Of a stretch of DNA of 37,359 nucleotides, positions 13,400 through 18,626 are shown piece after piece. The notes under the pieces are model-generated. The model was not told the origin of the DNA. It was given only the letters and a program-made list of their open reading frames with translations, and searched no databases. Both the position numbers and the translations under genes were made by a program. Numbering within the stretch: position 1 is the first letter of the stretch; each line of letters starts with the position of its first letter. The DNA comes from Parcubacteria group bacterium GW2011_GWA2_40_143 (GTDB taxonomy: Bacteria; Patescibacteriota; Minisyncoccia; UBA9983): NCBI GenBank assembly GCA_000996035.1, contig LBYH01000010.1, positions 1 to 37,359 of the forward strand, written 5' to 3'.

Positions 13400-13897
13400 T
13401 TAATTTCGAAGATAGAATTGATATGTATAGCTGCTCGCGGTTGGCCCACCCCAATTTCCAACCTGAGTACAACCAGAAGAGCCTTGCGACTCGTTCACGG
13501 CACCAAGAAGGTACTGCTGTCCGTCACTCCAATACGCATAAAATTGTGCGCCGCCACATCCACTCCCAACATAAGTGTTTCTTCCCGGGTCATAAGCCAC
13601 AGTTGGAATATCACCGTCAATTATGAGAGCGCCAAGCGGATTGCAAGAGAGATCAGTCGTTTGTTGATTCACCCAGCAATCACGATCACTTCCTGCTCCG
13701 CCAACCGGGTACGCGTTTTTGTTGGAATAATAAAGTTCAAGCGCAGTTCGGATAATGCTGAGGTCAGATTGGCGACGTGCGTCACGCGCTTTAACGCGCG
13801 CGGTGTTAAGACTTGCCAAAACTACGGAGGACAATATCCCAATAATTGCAATAACAACAAGTAATTCTATAAGTGTAAATCCTTTTGCATTTTTCAT
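13400..13897 (-). CDS. Type IV pilin-like major/minor pilin
   Basis: A 165-residue prepilin. The start at 13897 gives the short basic leader MKNAKG, then F-T-L-I-E and the 20-residue hydrophobic helix (LLVVIAIIGILSSVVLASLN): cleavage by prepilin peptidase after Gly6 and methylation of Phe are expected, with Glu5 of the mature protein present. After the helix, ARVKARDARRQSDLSIIRTA is the typical amphipathic alpha-1C, followed by a cysteine-containing globular domain (Cys in RDCW, LSCN, GSGCGG and SGCTQ, probably two disulfides). It assembles in the envelope as a pilus or pseudopilus. It is 4 bases downstream of a 101-residue TM protein and shares its promoter. A longer in-frame ORF upstream is not used. 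Confidence 0.93.
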   Translation of the reverse strand: MKNAKGFTLIELLVVIAIIGILSSVVLASLNTARVKARDARRQSDLSIIRTALELYYSNKNAYPVGGAGSDRDCWVNQQTTDLSCNPLGALIIDGDIPTVAYDPGRNTYVGSGCGGAQFYAYWSDGQQYLLGAVNESQGSSGCTQVGNWGGPTASSYTYQFYLRN

Positions 13898-13901
13898 AAA
13901 T

Positions 13902-14207
13902 TTATCCAGGAACGGTGAGCGATGTTCCGTGAGGAATTGGACCTCGAGCTTTTGAACCGCCCGACATGACAAAAAAGAAAACTATAACAATCGCCACCGC
14001 CACAAACCCAAGCAAAACATAACCCGCCTGTTTTTCGTCCTTGATATAGCCGCCAGAATACTTCATCACCAATTGGATGATTATAGGAGTGTCGGAGTAA
14101 TACGGACGGACATATTGCTGTTCACCTTTAAATTTTACGCGACTGCTTGAATCGTCAAGCGCGTGGCTTAAATCTATTCCTTTGTTGTCTTCGTTATTTT
14201 GATCCAT
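13902..14207 (-). CDS. Single-TM protein co-transcribed with the pilin
   Basis: Unrecognised 101-residue protein with a polar, Asp/Ser-rich N-terminus (MDQNNEDNKGIDLSHALDDS), a middle segment SGGYIKDEKQAGYVLLGFVA leading into one membrane helix (about residues 63-83, AVAIVIVFFFVMS), and a short Gly/Pro tail (GGSKARGPIPHG). No signal sequence, so the N-terminus is probably cytoplasmic. The pilin ATG follows its stop codon by 4 bases, so both are likely translated from one mRNA; a role in pilin export or assembly is only inferred. The promoter upstream has a G10 run in its spacer, so expression of both genes may vary with tract length. Confidence 0.7.
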   Translation of the reverse strand: MDQNNEDNKGIDLSHALDDSSSRVKFKGEQQYVRPYYSDTPIIIQLVMKYSGGYIKDEKQAGYVLLGFVAVAIVIVFFFVMSGGSKARGPIPHGTSLTVPG

Positions 14208-14255
14208 ACTGTTTATAAAAGTTTTGTTGTGGTTTGGTTTTCCACAATCATCTTT

Positions 14256-14285
14256 ATTTTATCACTATTACCCCCCCCCCTGCAA
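14256..14285 (-). promoter_or_regulatory. Pilin-operon promoter with poly-G spacer
   Basis: Minus strand: TTGCAG (14285-14280) as -35, then nine more G residues of a G10 tract (14280-14271) plus TAATAGTGA, giving an 18-base spacer, then TAAAAT (14261-14256) preceded by TGA (extended -10). Predicted start near 14249, 42 bases upstream of the ATG at 14207. One G fewer would give the optimal 17-base spacer. Confidence 0.6.
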
Positions 14286-14341
14286 GACATCGTAATGTTA
14301 CGTGTGTAAAAATAATGGCGAGCGAGTAAATTCGTTTAATA

Positions 14342-15775
14342 TTAATTCCCCTCCACAAACACCGGAATATCTTTTAGAGTTATCGTCACTTTTCCTCCGC
14401 TCACAGTCTTTGTTTCAGTGTTAAATGCGGTGCTGTAATCCGTCACCTTATTGTTTTTGGTAAATTTGTAAATATATATGCCGTCTTTTTCTTGGATTGT
14501 TTGAATATTATTCCAATCTGAGCCGTCCAAAACTTCCACCATTTTTTTGTAGGTGTAGTAGGCGAGTTTTTTCGAAGAATCGCCGTCGTTGTCAGGATTG
14601 TTTATTAATCCGTAATAATCAAAGACGCTGCTGCCTTCAGGAATGGAAGGAGCATCCGGACGAGTGGCGCCGGTTGATCCAAAATTATGCCTTTCATAAA
14701 CCAGATTCCAGAATATCTTATCTATCCCTTGACTTATACTGTAAATATAATATTTTAAAAGCCCTGTTGCTTGTTGTGCTTGAGTCTGAGATTTTAATCC
14801 GGGGCTATAATTATATTTTGGGTTGGGACTCCCATCGTGAGTTGCTGTTTCTATAAATATCAATTTATTATTAATATTCACGCCGTTGTCGGAAAATATT
14901 TTGGAATAGATATTCAATTTAGTTACAATTTCTTTATAGTCGCTGGCATTGGCGCTGTGTTGTTTAAATTCAAATACATCAAAATAACTTCCGGCTCCGG
15001 CAGAAAGAGCGTCTTTAAGAAAATCAGCTGCTCCACCAGGCATTTCTGTAGCACCCACCCCTACTCCGCCTAATCCTCCGAAAACCACATAACAATCGGG
15101 ACATTCTTCTTTCACAATAGTATAAGCCTCTTTTAAGTCAGTGGCGTATTCTTTCGCATATCCTTTCCAACCCGTTGGTGGCGTCAGCCCGTTTGGCTCG
15201 GTACCGAATTCCCAATATTTTATGGTGTCTTTATACTGGTTGATAGTTGAACGTATAGAATCTTTGCATTTTTGATCAGAAGTATAGGGCGGGGTTTTCC
15301 CCGTACACATTATACGTGAATAAATATTGGCTCCACTCTTTGAAATCTCATTGATATTGTCACCACGAGGCATCTCCTCTACCCACACCCCAATATCTTT
15401 AAGGATGCTATTGATATCGGTTTTCGAAACAGACTTCAAAGGATTTTGGGCACTTAATGTTTCGTAGGGACCAAAGATCCCAAACGGTGAATCCCAATTG
15501 ATTTGCTCAGTATTGGTCGGTTGTTGCCCCGTTGGTGATGGTGCTTGAGCTGACGGAGCAACTGTTTGTCCTTCGCAATCCTGCGGACATAAATTCAGAT
15601 CTGCTTTTTCCGCCGGTCCGCACACGCCATCTCCACAACTACCCTGCTGGACTTGCTGATTTGACTGTTTTGAATAATACAAAACCCCGCCGACAATTCC
15701 GCCAAGGACAACCACTCCGACGAGGATTGAGAGGATTATTTGAATAGGGGTGAAGCCTGATTGATTTTTATACAT
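14342..15775 (-). CDS. Anchored glycoside-hydrolase-like (TIM-barrel) protein
   Basis: A 477-residue surface protein. The N-terminus (MYKNQSGFTPIQIILSILVG) is a pilin-like G-F signal with hydrophobic helix to about residue 34. A small cysteine module follows at residues 47-67 (CGDGVCGPAE ... LCPQDC), a motif common in archaeal and CPR exported proteins, then a Pro/Gln/Thr-rich linker (70-92). From residue 95 on, the fold looks like a clan GH-A barrel: YWEFGTEPNG with Glu193 as candidate acid/base and LIFIETATHDG with Glu309 as candidate nucleophile. The last 70 residues are beta-rich. The substrate is unknown. It lies 15 bases after a truncated relative that abuts an insertion sequence, so it may have been second in a tandem pair. 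Confidence 0.7.
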   Translation of the reverse strand: MYKNQSGFTPIQIILSILVGVVVLGGIVGGVLYYSKQSNQQVQQGSCGDGVCGPAEKADLNLCPQDCEGQTVAPSAQAPSPTGQQPTNTEQINWDSPFGIFGPYETLSAQNPLKSVSKTDINSILKDIGVWVEEMPRGDNINEISKSGANIYSRIMCTGKTPPYTSDQKCKDSIRSTINQYKDTIKYWEFGTEPNGLTPPTGWKGYAKEYATDLKEAYTIVKEECPDCYVVFGGLGGVGVGATEMPGGAADFLKDALSAGAGSYFDVFEFKQHSANASDYKEIVTKLNIYSKIFSDNGVNINNKLIFIETATHDGSPNPKYNYSPGLKSQTQAQQATGLLKYYIYSISQGIDKIFWNLVYERHNFGSTGATRPDAPSIPEGSSVFDYYGLINNPDNDGDSSKKLAYYTYKKMVEVLDGSDWNNIQTIQEKDGIYIYKFTKNNKVTDYSTAFNTETKTVSGGKVTITLKDIPVFVEGN

Positions 15776-15790
15776 ATTTTTAATTAATTT

Positions 15791-16086
15791 TTAATATTCC
15801 ACCTCTAAATATTTAGGCGCATTAACCGCCTGCAAAGTTATCGTTTTGCTTGCAGTAATATTTGAGACATTGCCGTCTATGTCTGTAAGAGTAACCGACT
15901 TGGGGGTTTTGCTTAAATTCAATGTATAATTTACCGTTTCGTTATCTAATGAAATTGATTTTCCGGAAACATATTTGAATGGCTTAAAGAATATATACAA
16001 CTCTTTGTTGTCGCCCTGTTTGAATTTCTCAACCCAAACATCATCTTTCCCGAAATCTCCGCTGATTTTTGAACTGTAGTTATAAA
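15791..16086 (-). pseudogene. C-terminal remnant of a GH-like protein, cut by an IS
   Basis: About 97 residues of host-like sequence (starting SSKISGDFGKDDVWVEKFKQ and ending APKYLEVEY) read into the end of the insertion sequence on the right; the first residues of the frame (MVIHVYN) come from the IS end itself. The content is beta-rich and ends much like the adjacent 14342-15775 protein (KVTITLKDIP versus KTITLQAVNAP), so it looks like the last domain of a paralogue. The missing N-terminal part is not found on the far side of the IS, so a deletion accompanied or followed the insertion. It has no start codon of its own with a credible signal. Confidence 0.7.
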
Positions 16087-17183
16087 CATGTATAACCACA
16101 CCCTATTCTGGACTCCGAAGGCATTTTAACAGTTATTGGTATTTTATTCAACGACATCATAAATTGTATCGGAGAAAGTTTGTTTTGGAAAGCGCAGTGG
16201 ACCCTTTCGGTATTGTAAAAAATCAGATAATCAATAAGTCTGTTATTAAACTTATCGGGGGTAAGCAACAGAAAAGAATGGTAATCAATGAATTCGTCTT
16301 GAATAGTCCGGTTGAATCGTTCTAAATGGGCGTTCATTTTCGGGGTCTTGGGATAGGTATGAAAATGAACCATGCGCAAACGCCTTAATTCCGCGTCAAA
16401 ATGTTTTTTAAACTCCGAACCGTTATCGGTTAAAACGTAAAGGAATTGATAAGAAAAAGGAAATACTTTAACGCATAAGTCAAAAAATTCTTTGGCAGCC
16501 GATGAAGCATGCGATTTAGTTGCCCATGCAAAGCTAAAACGGGTATAAATATCTTCAAAGGTAATCACGTATCTCCGGCAGCCGTTAACGAATCGTTCTA
16601 CGGTGTCTAGGGCGACTAAATGGCCGGGATATAAAGGCTTAAAATCCTTAGGTTTTCTCAATACTTTTTGACGATTAACCTTCTTGATTTTTCCGAAATG
16701 GGATACTTTTTGAGGAAAAGTTCTCAAACCGCCGCAATCTTTAATAATTCTTCCGATGGTTATCGGCTTGGGACATTTAAAATTATTAGAACCGCAGAAT
16801 TTTAAAAGCAGTGGATATAGTTTCTTTTCGCCTAAATTAGGATGGACTTCCCGCGATCTTAATCTCTTGATCTCGTTTTTTACTTCATCCGGCCACAAAC
16901 GTTTTCGTTTAGTTTGCGGTTCTCGGGATTTTTCATTCAATGCTTCTATTTTCTTACCGCCTTTTATCCATTGATCTTTCCATGAGTAGTATGTTGACCT
17001 TTTTTTATCAGGGAAAGCGTCTAATGTAGCCTCAAGACCATACTTTTCCCAGAATATAAGTGTTCTGGTCTTTTCTTTGGCTTTTGCTGTAATCATATAC
17101 CGGTATCTTATCGCATCATTGTATACGGTCAAAAATCCTTTAACACCGGTATATTTACAATGAATATGATTAAAAAACTCCAT
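16080..17183 (-). CDS. DDE (rve) transposase, IS481/IS3-like
   Basis: Transposase of 367 residues. A helix-turn-helix region (EATLDAFPDKKRSTYYSWKD) is followed by a second DNA-binding segment with HPNLGEKKLYPLLLKF, then an rve integrase core: first Asp in HLVALDTVERF, second in VLTDNGSEFKKHF, and the Glu 35 residues further on in NAHLERFNRTIQDEF. The tail LSPIQFMMSLNK matches the end of such integrases. The single-frame arrangement suits IS481-like elements better than the frameshifted IS3 family. The last codons (TGT TTA TAA) run past the IS end into flanking DNA. The frame begins at 17183 inside a hairpin; an internal Met at residue 30 (MITAKAKEK) is a possible alternative start. Confidence 0.88.
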   Translation of the reverse strand: MEFFNHIHCKYTGVKGFLTVYNDAIRYRYMITAKAKEKTRTLIFWEKYGLEATLDAFPDKKRSTYYSWKDQWIKGGKKIEALNEKSREPQTKRKRLWPDEVKNEIKRLRSREVHPNLGEKKLYPLLLKFCGSNNFKCPKPITIGRIIKDCGGLRTFPQKVSHFGKIKKVNRQKVLRKPKDFKPLYPGHLVALDTVERFVNGCRRYVITFEDIYTRFSFAWATKSHASSAAKEFFDLCVKVFPFSYQFLYVLTDNGSEFKKHFDAELRRLRMVHFHTYPKTPKMNAHLERFNRTIQDEFIDYHSFLLLTPDKFNNRLIDYLIFYNTERVHCAFQNKLSPIQFMMSLNKIPITVKMPSESRIGCGYTCL

Positions 17184-17639: not shown

Positions 17640-17677
17640 GAATAATTTCGGTTGGTAATTTGTTCATTTACAAGTAA
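17462..17677 (+). pseudogene. Start-less coding remnant running into IS-B
   Basis: An open plus-strand frame of about 71 codons without ATG, reading KNKLGSADVFLKFIHSAEKD, then RFIEAFFAQVAIIYGILRVW and IIGKLDIREDTENKYRVVRI, and ending inside the end of IS-B. Its amino-acid composition looks protein-like. I do not recognise the family. It is probably the fragment of a gene disrupted by IS-B, but chance openness in AT-rich DNA is possible. Confidence 0.35.
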
Positions 17678-18626
17678 ATTTAGGCTTTAATCTAGCGCAA
17701 GCAATTGACCATTTATGCCATGATTTCGAAGTTTTAGTTGTTTTAGTTTTTTCTCTTACAAAACTATTAACCGATTCCATCACATTAACCGTTGTTGGTA
17801 AATTCAATTCGGGATAGTTTAAATATGCTCTAAATTCAGGCAAGCGTCTTAGAAAGTCTTTGACTATCATTCTCATGGCTTCAGGACAACCTTCTTCCCA
17901 AGTTAATAATGCCAACCGTTTGCAAAGAATATTTAATCTGCGCGTTGATGTCTCAACCAAAGCCTGTTTAACCAAAAAGTATATTTCTTGCCGAACAATC
18001 CTGCCGTGCGTTGAAGCTCTCTTGCCGCGTCTTTTTTGCAACGCGCTAAGTAAATGAAAGTGGCAACGTTGGATGATCCAATTATTGCGGAATGCGATGG
18101 TTTCAATACCCCTAATTCCATCTGAAACAAGGGTAATTACGCGTTTTTTAATTCCTAACGGCAATTGATCAAATATTTTATCCCAAGTAGTGGCATTCTC
18201 CTTGCCTTGTTTAAGAATGGGGTCGAGGATAACGACTGATTTTGAATCAACGGATTTAATAGCCAGGAAATACAGCGTCCAAAGTTCCTTTTTGAAATAA
18301 TGCCATTCGGCATCAATTATTAAAATCAATTTTGAACCCTTGACTCTGATAATTCTTTTCTCGTCAACAATCCGATTCAAGTTTTTGGCGAATCGCTTAT
18401 AAATAGCGCCTTCTGATAGTTTAGAATGTAAAGCGATTTGTTTTACACTAAATCCGTGCTTAAACATTTTTTTCAGATAGCCGCATTGTTTACGAGAAGG
18501 TTTTGGTCCTCGCTTAGCGGGATAAACTCGCCATGTTTTTTTACAGACAACGCATTGCCTGCGTTTAACGCCAAAACGAATTATTTTAGCGCCACAGCAT
18601 CTACTTTTCTTATGTAATAACTTCAT
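17664..18626 (-). CDS. Zinc-ribbon DDE/MULE-like transposase
   Basis: A 320-residue transposase. The N-terminus is a zinc ribbon (RCCGAKIIRFGVKRRQCVVC, then KKTWRVY), followed by an HTH (FSVKQIALHSKLSEGAIYKR). The catalytic core shows Asp in LILIIDAEWHYF, Asp in ITLVSDGIRGIETIAF, then IIQRCHFHLLSAL (the C-x-x-H feature of IS256/MULE-type enzymes) and a late Glu in TVNVMESVNSFVREKTKTTK. I would place it in the IS256/MULE superfamily, but the precise IS family is not certain; ISL3 and IS1595-like elements share the zinc ribbon. The gene appears intact, so the element could still be active. Its ATG lies in a 15-bp hairpin. Confidence 0.82.
   Translation of the reverse strand: MKLLHKKSRCCGAKIIRFGVKRRQCVVCKKTWRVYPAKRGPKPSRKQCGYLKKMFKHGFSVKQIALHSKLSEGAIYKRFAKNLNRIVDEKRIIRVKGSKLILIIDAEWHYFKKELWTLYFLAIKSVDSKSVVILDPILKQGKENATTWDKIFDQLPLGIKKRVITLVSDGIRGIETIAFRNNWIIQRCHFHLLSALQKRRGKRASTHGRIVRQEIYFLVKQALVETSTRRLNILCKRLALLTWEEGCPEAMRMIVKDFLRRLPEFRAYLNYPELNLPTTVNVMESVNSFVREKTKTTKTSKSWHKWSIACARLKPKFTCK

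Follow-up and report, generated by a model that had tools for sequence, protein, structure and literature searches.

A poly-G tract in the promoter spacer of a type IV pilin operon in a Parcubacteria group bacterium: a candidate for spacer-length phase variation

The window analyzed here is the whole 37,359-nucleotide stretch of contig LBYH01000010.1 from Parcubacteria group bacterium GW2011_GWA2_40_143. It contains, on the minus strand, a two-gene operon for a small membrane protein and a type IV pilin, and the putative promoter of this operon carries ten consecutive Gs. In the direction of transcription, the locus consists of:

14342..15775, minus strand: upstream gene, a 477-aa secreted protein with a pilin-like N-terminus (GFTPIQIILSILVGVVVLGG)
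14280..14285, minus strand: -35-like box TTGCAG, a 3/6 match to TTGACA (direct reading, ortholog comparison)
14271..14280, minus strand: G10 homopolymer in the promoter spacer, candidate slippage tract (direct reading; C10 on the plus strand)
14256..14261, minus strand: -10 box TAAAAT (direct reading; the orthologs compared have TA(A/T/C)AAT here)
14225..14250, minus strand: hairpin TTGTGG...CCACAA in the 5' leader, with weak folding
13902..14207, minus strand: operon gene 1, a 101-aa single-pass membrane protein (MDQNNE...SGGYIKDEKQA) of no named family
13400..13897, minus strand: operon gene 2, a type IV prepilin (MKNAKGFTLIELLVVIAIIG...; PF07963 N_methyl, E=8e-10; TIGR02532 above cut-off)

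The earlier note had placed a membrane protein and a type IV pilin downstream of the tract, and this is borne out. The second gene encodes the N-terminal methylation motif of prepilins and is recognized by both PF07963 and TIGR02532; its ATG lies four bases past the stop codon of the membrane-protein gene. The 101-aa membrane protein has no match in Pfam and none above cut-off in NCBIfam, and relatives of it are encoded in 33 of the 384 genomes of the class. The product under control of the tract is probably surface-exposed, judging from the two prepilin matches and from PilM and PilO genes near a second copy of the promoter (below). Upstream of the locus, between positions 15791 and 18626 of the window, the family of secreted proteins with pilin-like signals looks mosaic: a 102-aa open reading frame (15791-16099) is similar to the C-terminus of a 605-aa protein encoded on contig C3, and it adjoins two transposase genes, one of the rve type (16080-17183) and one of the Mutator type (17664-18626).

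A 134-bp gap separates the stop codon of the upstream gene, at 14342, from the membrane-protein ATG at 14207, and the tract lies within it. Read directly, the plus strand is ATTTTA (14256-14261), TCACTATTA (14262-14270), C10 (14271-14280) and CTGCAA (14280-14285), and the minus strand across the promoter is GTCTTGCAGGGGGGGGGGTAATAGTGATAAAATAAAGATG. The final G of TTGCAG is also the first G of the tract, and the TTGC portion at the left edge of the tract is kept in most orthologs. The spacer (14262-14279) is 18 bp with ten Gs and becomes 17 bp after loss of one G. Position, tract length and both spacer lengths thus agree with the earlier note. TAAAAT is preceded by TGA, giving an extended -10 (TGATAAAAT), and the leader sequence AGTTGTGGAAAACTAAATCTGCAACAAAACTTTTATAAA is conserved in relatives, between families.

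The claim that these elements form a promoter stands in part. The -10 and the 5' leader are conserved across families, but TTGCAG matches the consensus at only three of six positions and a consensus promoter scan of 14050-14500 called no promoter. If a spacer tract is defined as about 8 or more G or C residues between a -35 and a -10, this promoter has one, with a -35 that is a weak match. Given the poor -35 and the extended -10, the -35 and the spacing may both matter little to this promoter, whose sensitivity to spacing could be below that of the porA promoter of Neisseria. We found no terminator 3' of the upstream secreted-protein gene, and therefore read-through could also supply transcripts of the operon. 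Two other readings of the region were discarded: TTGC as part of a sigma-54 promoter, by eye, as there is no GG at the -24 place, and a second candidate -10, the TATAAA close to the ATG, because orthologs do not conserve it.

The length of the tract is exceptional. G/C runs of length 3 to 9 occur 312, 62, 14, 1, 0, 0 and 0 times in the window, followed by the single run of 10; counts drop about five-fold with each added base and end at 6, this run excepted. The earlier note's remark that no other long homopolymer lies in a promoter here holds for G/C, as no other G/C run in the window reaches 7, but A/T runs of 8-9 do exist elsewhere in it. The 729-kb genome, covered by pattern searches and by stretches of sequence, has twelve G/C runs of at least 8, eight of at least 9 and three of 10. 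Under an order-3 Markov model fitted to the window, 3.8, 0.5 and 0.17 such runs would be expected (at least 8, 9 and 10, respectively). Since these values come from six simulations only and an order-1 model gives 9.2 runs of at least 8, the excess is firm from 9 upward. An order-5 model was unusable because the tract itself trains it.

Contig C3 of the same genome has a near-identical block made up of the promoter, the membrane-protein gene and the 3' end of an upstream gene. The pilin gene after it is a different one, and genes for PilM and PilO are found at a distance of 4-7 kb on the contig. The tract in this block has nine Gs (C3:57821-57829), making the spacer 17 bp rather than 18. Over 593 aligned bases the two copies differ by 12 substitutions and two internal indels: ten bases within the upstream gene, and a single G within the tract. 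That G is the sole difference between the copies over about 115 bp around the promoter.

The earlier note also proposed comparing homologous promoters, and when this was done tract length differed both between the paralogs (10 and 9) and among orthologs (9, 8, 7, 6, 5 and 4). The comparison covered five further genomes of the class and an outside record, all different species rather than strains of one population; a search of the genus, with one genome per species, returned this genome alone. Orthologous promoters in the closest group keep TTGC, a G-run (9, 8, 7, 6 or 5) and TA(A/T/C)AAT, with recognizable flanks and variable length. The promoters, with the distance from TTGCNN to the -10, are:

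G025: TTTGCGAAGGA-G9-AAGTGATATAAT, distance 19
G043: TTGC-G8-TGATAGTGGTAAAAT, distance 15
G044: TTGC-G7-TGATTAGTAAAAT, distance 12
G050: TTGC-G5-AGAGCGTAAGTGATACAAT, distance 16
L041 (the outside record): TTGC-G6-TGGCAGGATATATAAT, distance 14
G063: only GGGGATATAAT

The weakest of these orthologs (L120) has four Gs and lacks TTGC. The leader between the -10 and the ATG is recognizable in five of six orthologs, L041 being the exception, and pilin genes lie 3' of the orthologous promoters wherever the following sequence was read. The genomes carry the family labels f5, f6, f16, f30 and f36, and different families are thus involved. The run in L041 is the only G/C run of at least 6 in 12 kb, and those in L110 and L114 are the only ones in their loci. 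For each of the longer runs (6-9), the Markov probability in a 40-bp stretch is 2e-5 to 3e-3, although multiplying over loci does not yield a p-value, since homology guided the choice of promoters and common descent may link them. By sequence comparison, then, the tract is a conserved feature of this promoter, and its conservation across families is unusually wide. More diverged orthologs (L112, L113, L115, L118, L119 and L122) have no tract and a different promoter setting, several of them beside tRNA genes. Order-level searches around G000, G043 and G063 yielded few or no new close orthologs, a second search of the class gave no new orthologous genomes, and an exact-flank pattern with a variable gap had no match in viral contigs.

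The distance from TTGCNN to the -10, 18 and 17 in this genome and 12 to 19 across orthologs, implies either that several of these promoters are "off" or that TTGC does not serve as the -35. With TTGC as the -35, some spacers would be near-optimal and others non-functional, a spread that switches in different states should show. If instead the extended -10 drives the promoter, spacing would matter less, and this is the main weakness of viewing the tract as a switch.

The pilin promoter is not the only place in this genome with such tracts. Nine paralogous leaders (C4:642, C8:23339, C8:27786, C8:30749, C11:4914, C11:7724, C11:12224, C11:15605 and C11:29943) have a TTGACT box and a -10-like element with six to nine Cs in between. 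They follow the pattern TTGACTTTT(T)(A/G)-C(n)-TGNTANNNT, then a TTCTTTAAAAA-like box, with n of 9, 8, 8, 8, 6, 6, 6, 9 and 9 and a TTGACT-to-TANNNT distance of 14-19; most copies have a near-perfect ribosome-binding site (Shine-Dalgarno), AGAAAGGAGG. The genes 3' of the leaders include those for a histidyl-tRNA-synthetase-like protein and a radical SAM protein. Because the -10 of the leaders (TAGCCT in most) is a poor match, a promoter role is plausible rather than established. The TTCTTTAAAAA box resembles the boxA of rRNA operons, and short possible leader peptides follow some of the leaders.

Other tracts lie within genes. In the same genome, a G10 tract at C6:14346-14355 (L070; L037 8347-8356) is inside a coding region, where frames of 112 and 147 aa meet. 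With ten Gs, the 111 codons before the tract and the 141 after it are in different registers; with nine they share one, making this a candidate frame-switch locus. In related genomes, long G/C tracts occupy the start of bAvd genes (diversity-generating retroelement accessory) in L068 (1501-1509) and L071 (1501-1510) and, by resemblance, in L044 (1501-1511); the tract of L048 (1501-1510) is within the gene for a reverse transcriptase. At the assembled lengths, L044, L048 and L068 are out of register, and these retroelements are possibly phase-variable. G/C runs of at least 9 occur in 10 of the 11 genomes of the G000 family.

Several further observations concern tracts in this genome and family. 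A G10 run lies upstream of a purA-like gene (C12:31644; L036 7645-7654), and a C9 run lies between divergent rpiB-like and VKOR-like genes, with TTTACA-17-TATCCT around it (C2:71285; L032 7286-7294). The string G7TAA occurs 20 times in the G000 family, against 5 for the reversed control. It may be a motif of its own, but the repeated leaders contribute at least 5 of the 20 cases and thus explain part of the excess. Two assembled contigs stop near a G10 tract, one within 2 bases of it (L045; G003:C6, contig end 3100) and one within 57 bases (L046; G004:C6, contig end 4510), as might happen if tract length varied among reads.

Promoters with homopolymeric spacers are established in other bacteria. 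Expression work by van der Ende in 1995 reportedly showed the role of a poly-G spacer in the porA promoter of Neisseria meningitidis. As in the pilin promoter, the homopolymer in porA lies between the -35 and the -10, a surface-structure gene is downstream, and one-base changes alter the spacer. In contrast, porA encodes a porin rather than a pilin and was studied by expression, whereas the present case is one of sequence comparison, and it is the pilin promoter that has the weak TTGCAG as its -35 and an extended -10. Slippage alters the -35/-10 spacing in both porA and opc of Neisseria; PMC5084427 cites van der Ende 1995 for the former and, for a poly-cytidine tract in the opc promoter of N. 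meningitidis, Sarkari 1994. There too a G/C homopolymer within the promoter changes promoter size, although opc is another gene in another lineage. Moreover, its C-run is on the coding strand, as in the leaders on C4, C8 and C11 and unlike the run in the pilin promoter.

Fimbriae of Bordetella pertussis are of the chaperone-usher type and not type IV pili. Their fim2 and fim3 promoters resemble the one described here in that a homopolymer lies in the promoter of a fimbrial subunit. In fim3, loss of one C (14C to 13C) abolishes Fim3, and mixed tract lengths of fim2 and fim3 occur within strains (PMC10172299). The fim promoters differ in requiring the activator BvgA and in their longer tracts of 11-16 C (PMC10172299). 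Within the Candidate Phyla Radiation (CPR), repeat hypervariation has been described in a Gracilibacterium and slippage-type variation proposed, but this involves a 9-mer repeat inside a repeat-protein gene and not a promoter homopolymer (PMC6851277).

We believe that spacer-length phase variation of the pilin promoter, like that of porA and opc in Neisseria and fim in Bordetella, is probably the best explanation for these findings. The G10 tract would be a slippage-prone spacer in the promoter of the membrane-protein and pilin operon. Slippage during replication, the likely source of the length differences, would add or remove Gs, and the G count would shift the distance between the -35 and the -10 (18 bp with ten Gs, 17 with nine). 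The changed distance would be expected to alter the rate of transcription, giving rise to lineages of cells with more or less pilin and thus to reversible, cell-to-cell switching. Support comes from a tract length beyond chance, the one-G difference between paralogs, the orthologs, the nine leaders, the out-of-frame tracts and the failure to find MutS. None of the 11 family genomes, of which nine are at least 90% complete, yielded a MutS domain (PF00488), whereas a control search found it in 11 of 14 reference genomes; without MutS, slippage would be favored and tract instability likely. By analogy, the established mechanism at fim3 of B. pertussis lends further weight.

Several findings run against such a switch: the poor -35 and extended -10, the ortholog distances of 12-19, the absence of TTGC from L120, the fact that the orthologs are from different species, and possible read-through from the upstream gene. 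One alternative is that TTGC and the G-run form a conserved regulatory element, either a binding site for a regulator or a structural spacer, in which changes in length reflect slow divergence with little effect. Both are kept across families, the extended -10 could act without a -35, and the run is loosely constrained in length among orthologs. We nevertheless consider this rather unlikely. A binding site should keep its length and its phase to the -10, but run length is the feature of these promoters that varies most, and near the promoter nothing else separates the two near-identical copies. A loss of mismatch repair would also feed another account, less likely again, in which G-runs slip wherever tolerated and drift without an adaptive role while the promoter is constitutive and pilin output constant. 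The failure to find MutS fits this, as do the long G/C runs in most family genomes, some without evident role (C12:31644 and C2:71285). Tracts arising at random, however, should not occupy a fixed position in orthologous promoters from different families, and should not be repeated across nine paralogous leaders either. Finally, the sequence is probably from a metagenome assembly, homopolymers are error-prone, and one family contig (G003:C6) ends two bases past its tract. An artefact of assembly or sequencing is still very improbable, because the run is present in the orthologous promoter in independent assemblies of several genomes and on two contigs of this one; only the exact count, nine or ten, could be artefactual.

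We speculate, more tentatively than for the pilin promoter itself, that members of this Patescibacteria lineage, lacking MutS, run poly-G/C contingency loci throughout their genomes. These would include an ancient pilin promoter switch shared across families, C-tract promoter leaders and frame-switching retroelement genes (avd and reverse transcriptase), such that the diversifying machinery would itself be switched by slippage.

Phase variation by spacer tracts is known mainly from animal pathogens. Patescibacteria are mostly uncultured and are thought to live attached to other microbes, and pili are their likely contact organelles. We found no description of promoter-tract phase variation in Patescibacteria or the CPR in the open-licence literature, which is weak evidence of novelty, and the nearest CPR case there is the 9-mer repeat of the Gracilibacterium, next to a review that does no more than cite phase variation as a term. 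If phase variation of the pilin promoter does occur, attachment in these reduced genomes would be set by bet-hedging, and the range of spacer-tract phase variation would widen to environmental, host-dependent bacteria, across families. The tract would then be a marker for how such cells choose or escape hosts and phages.
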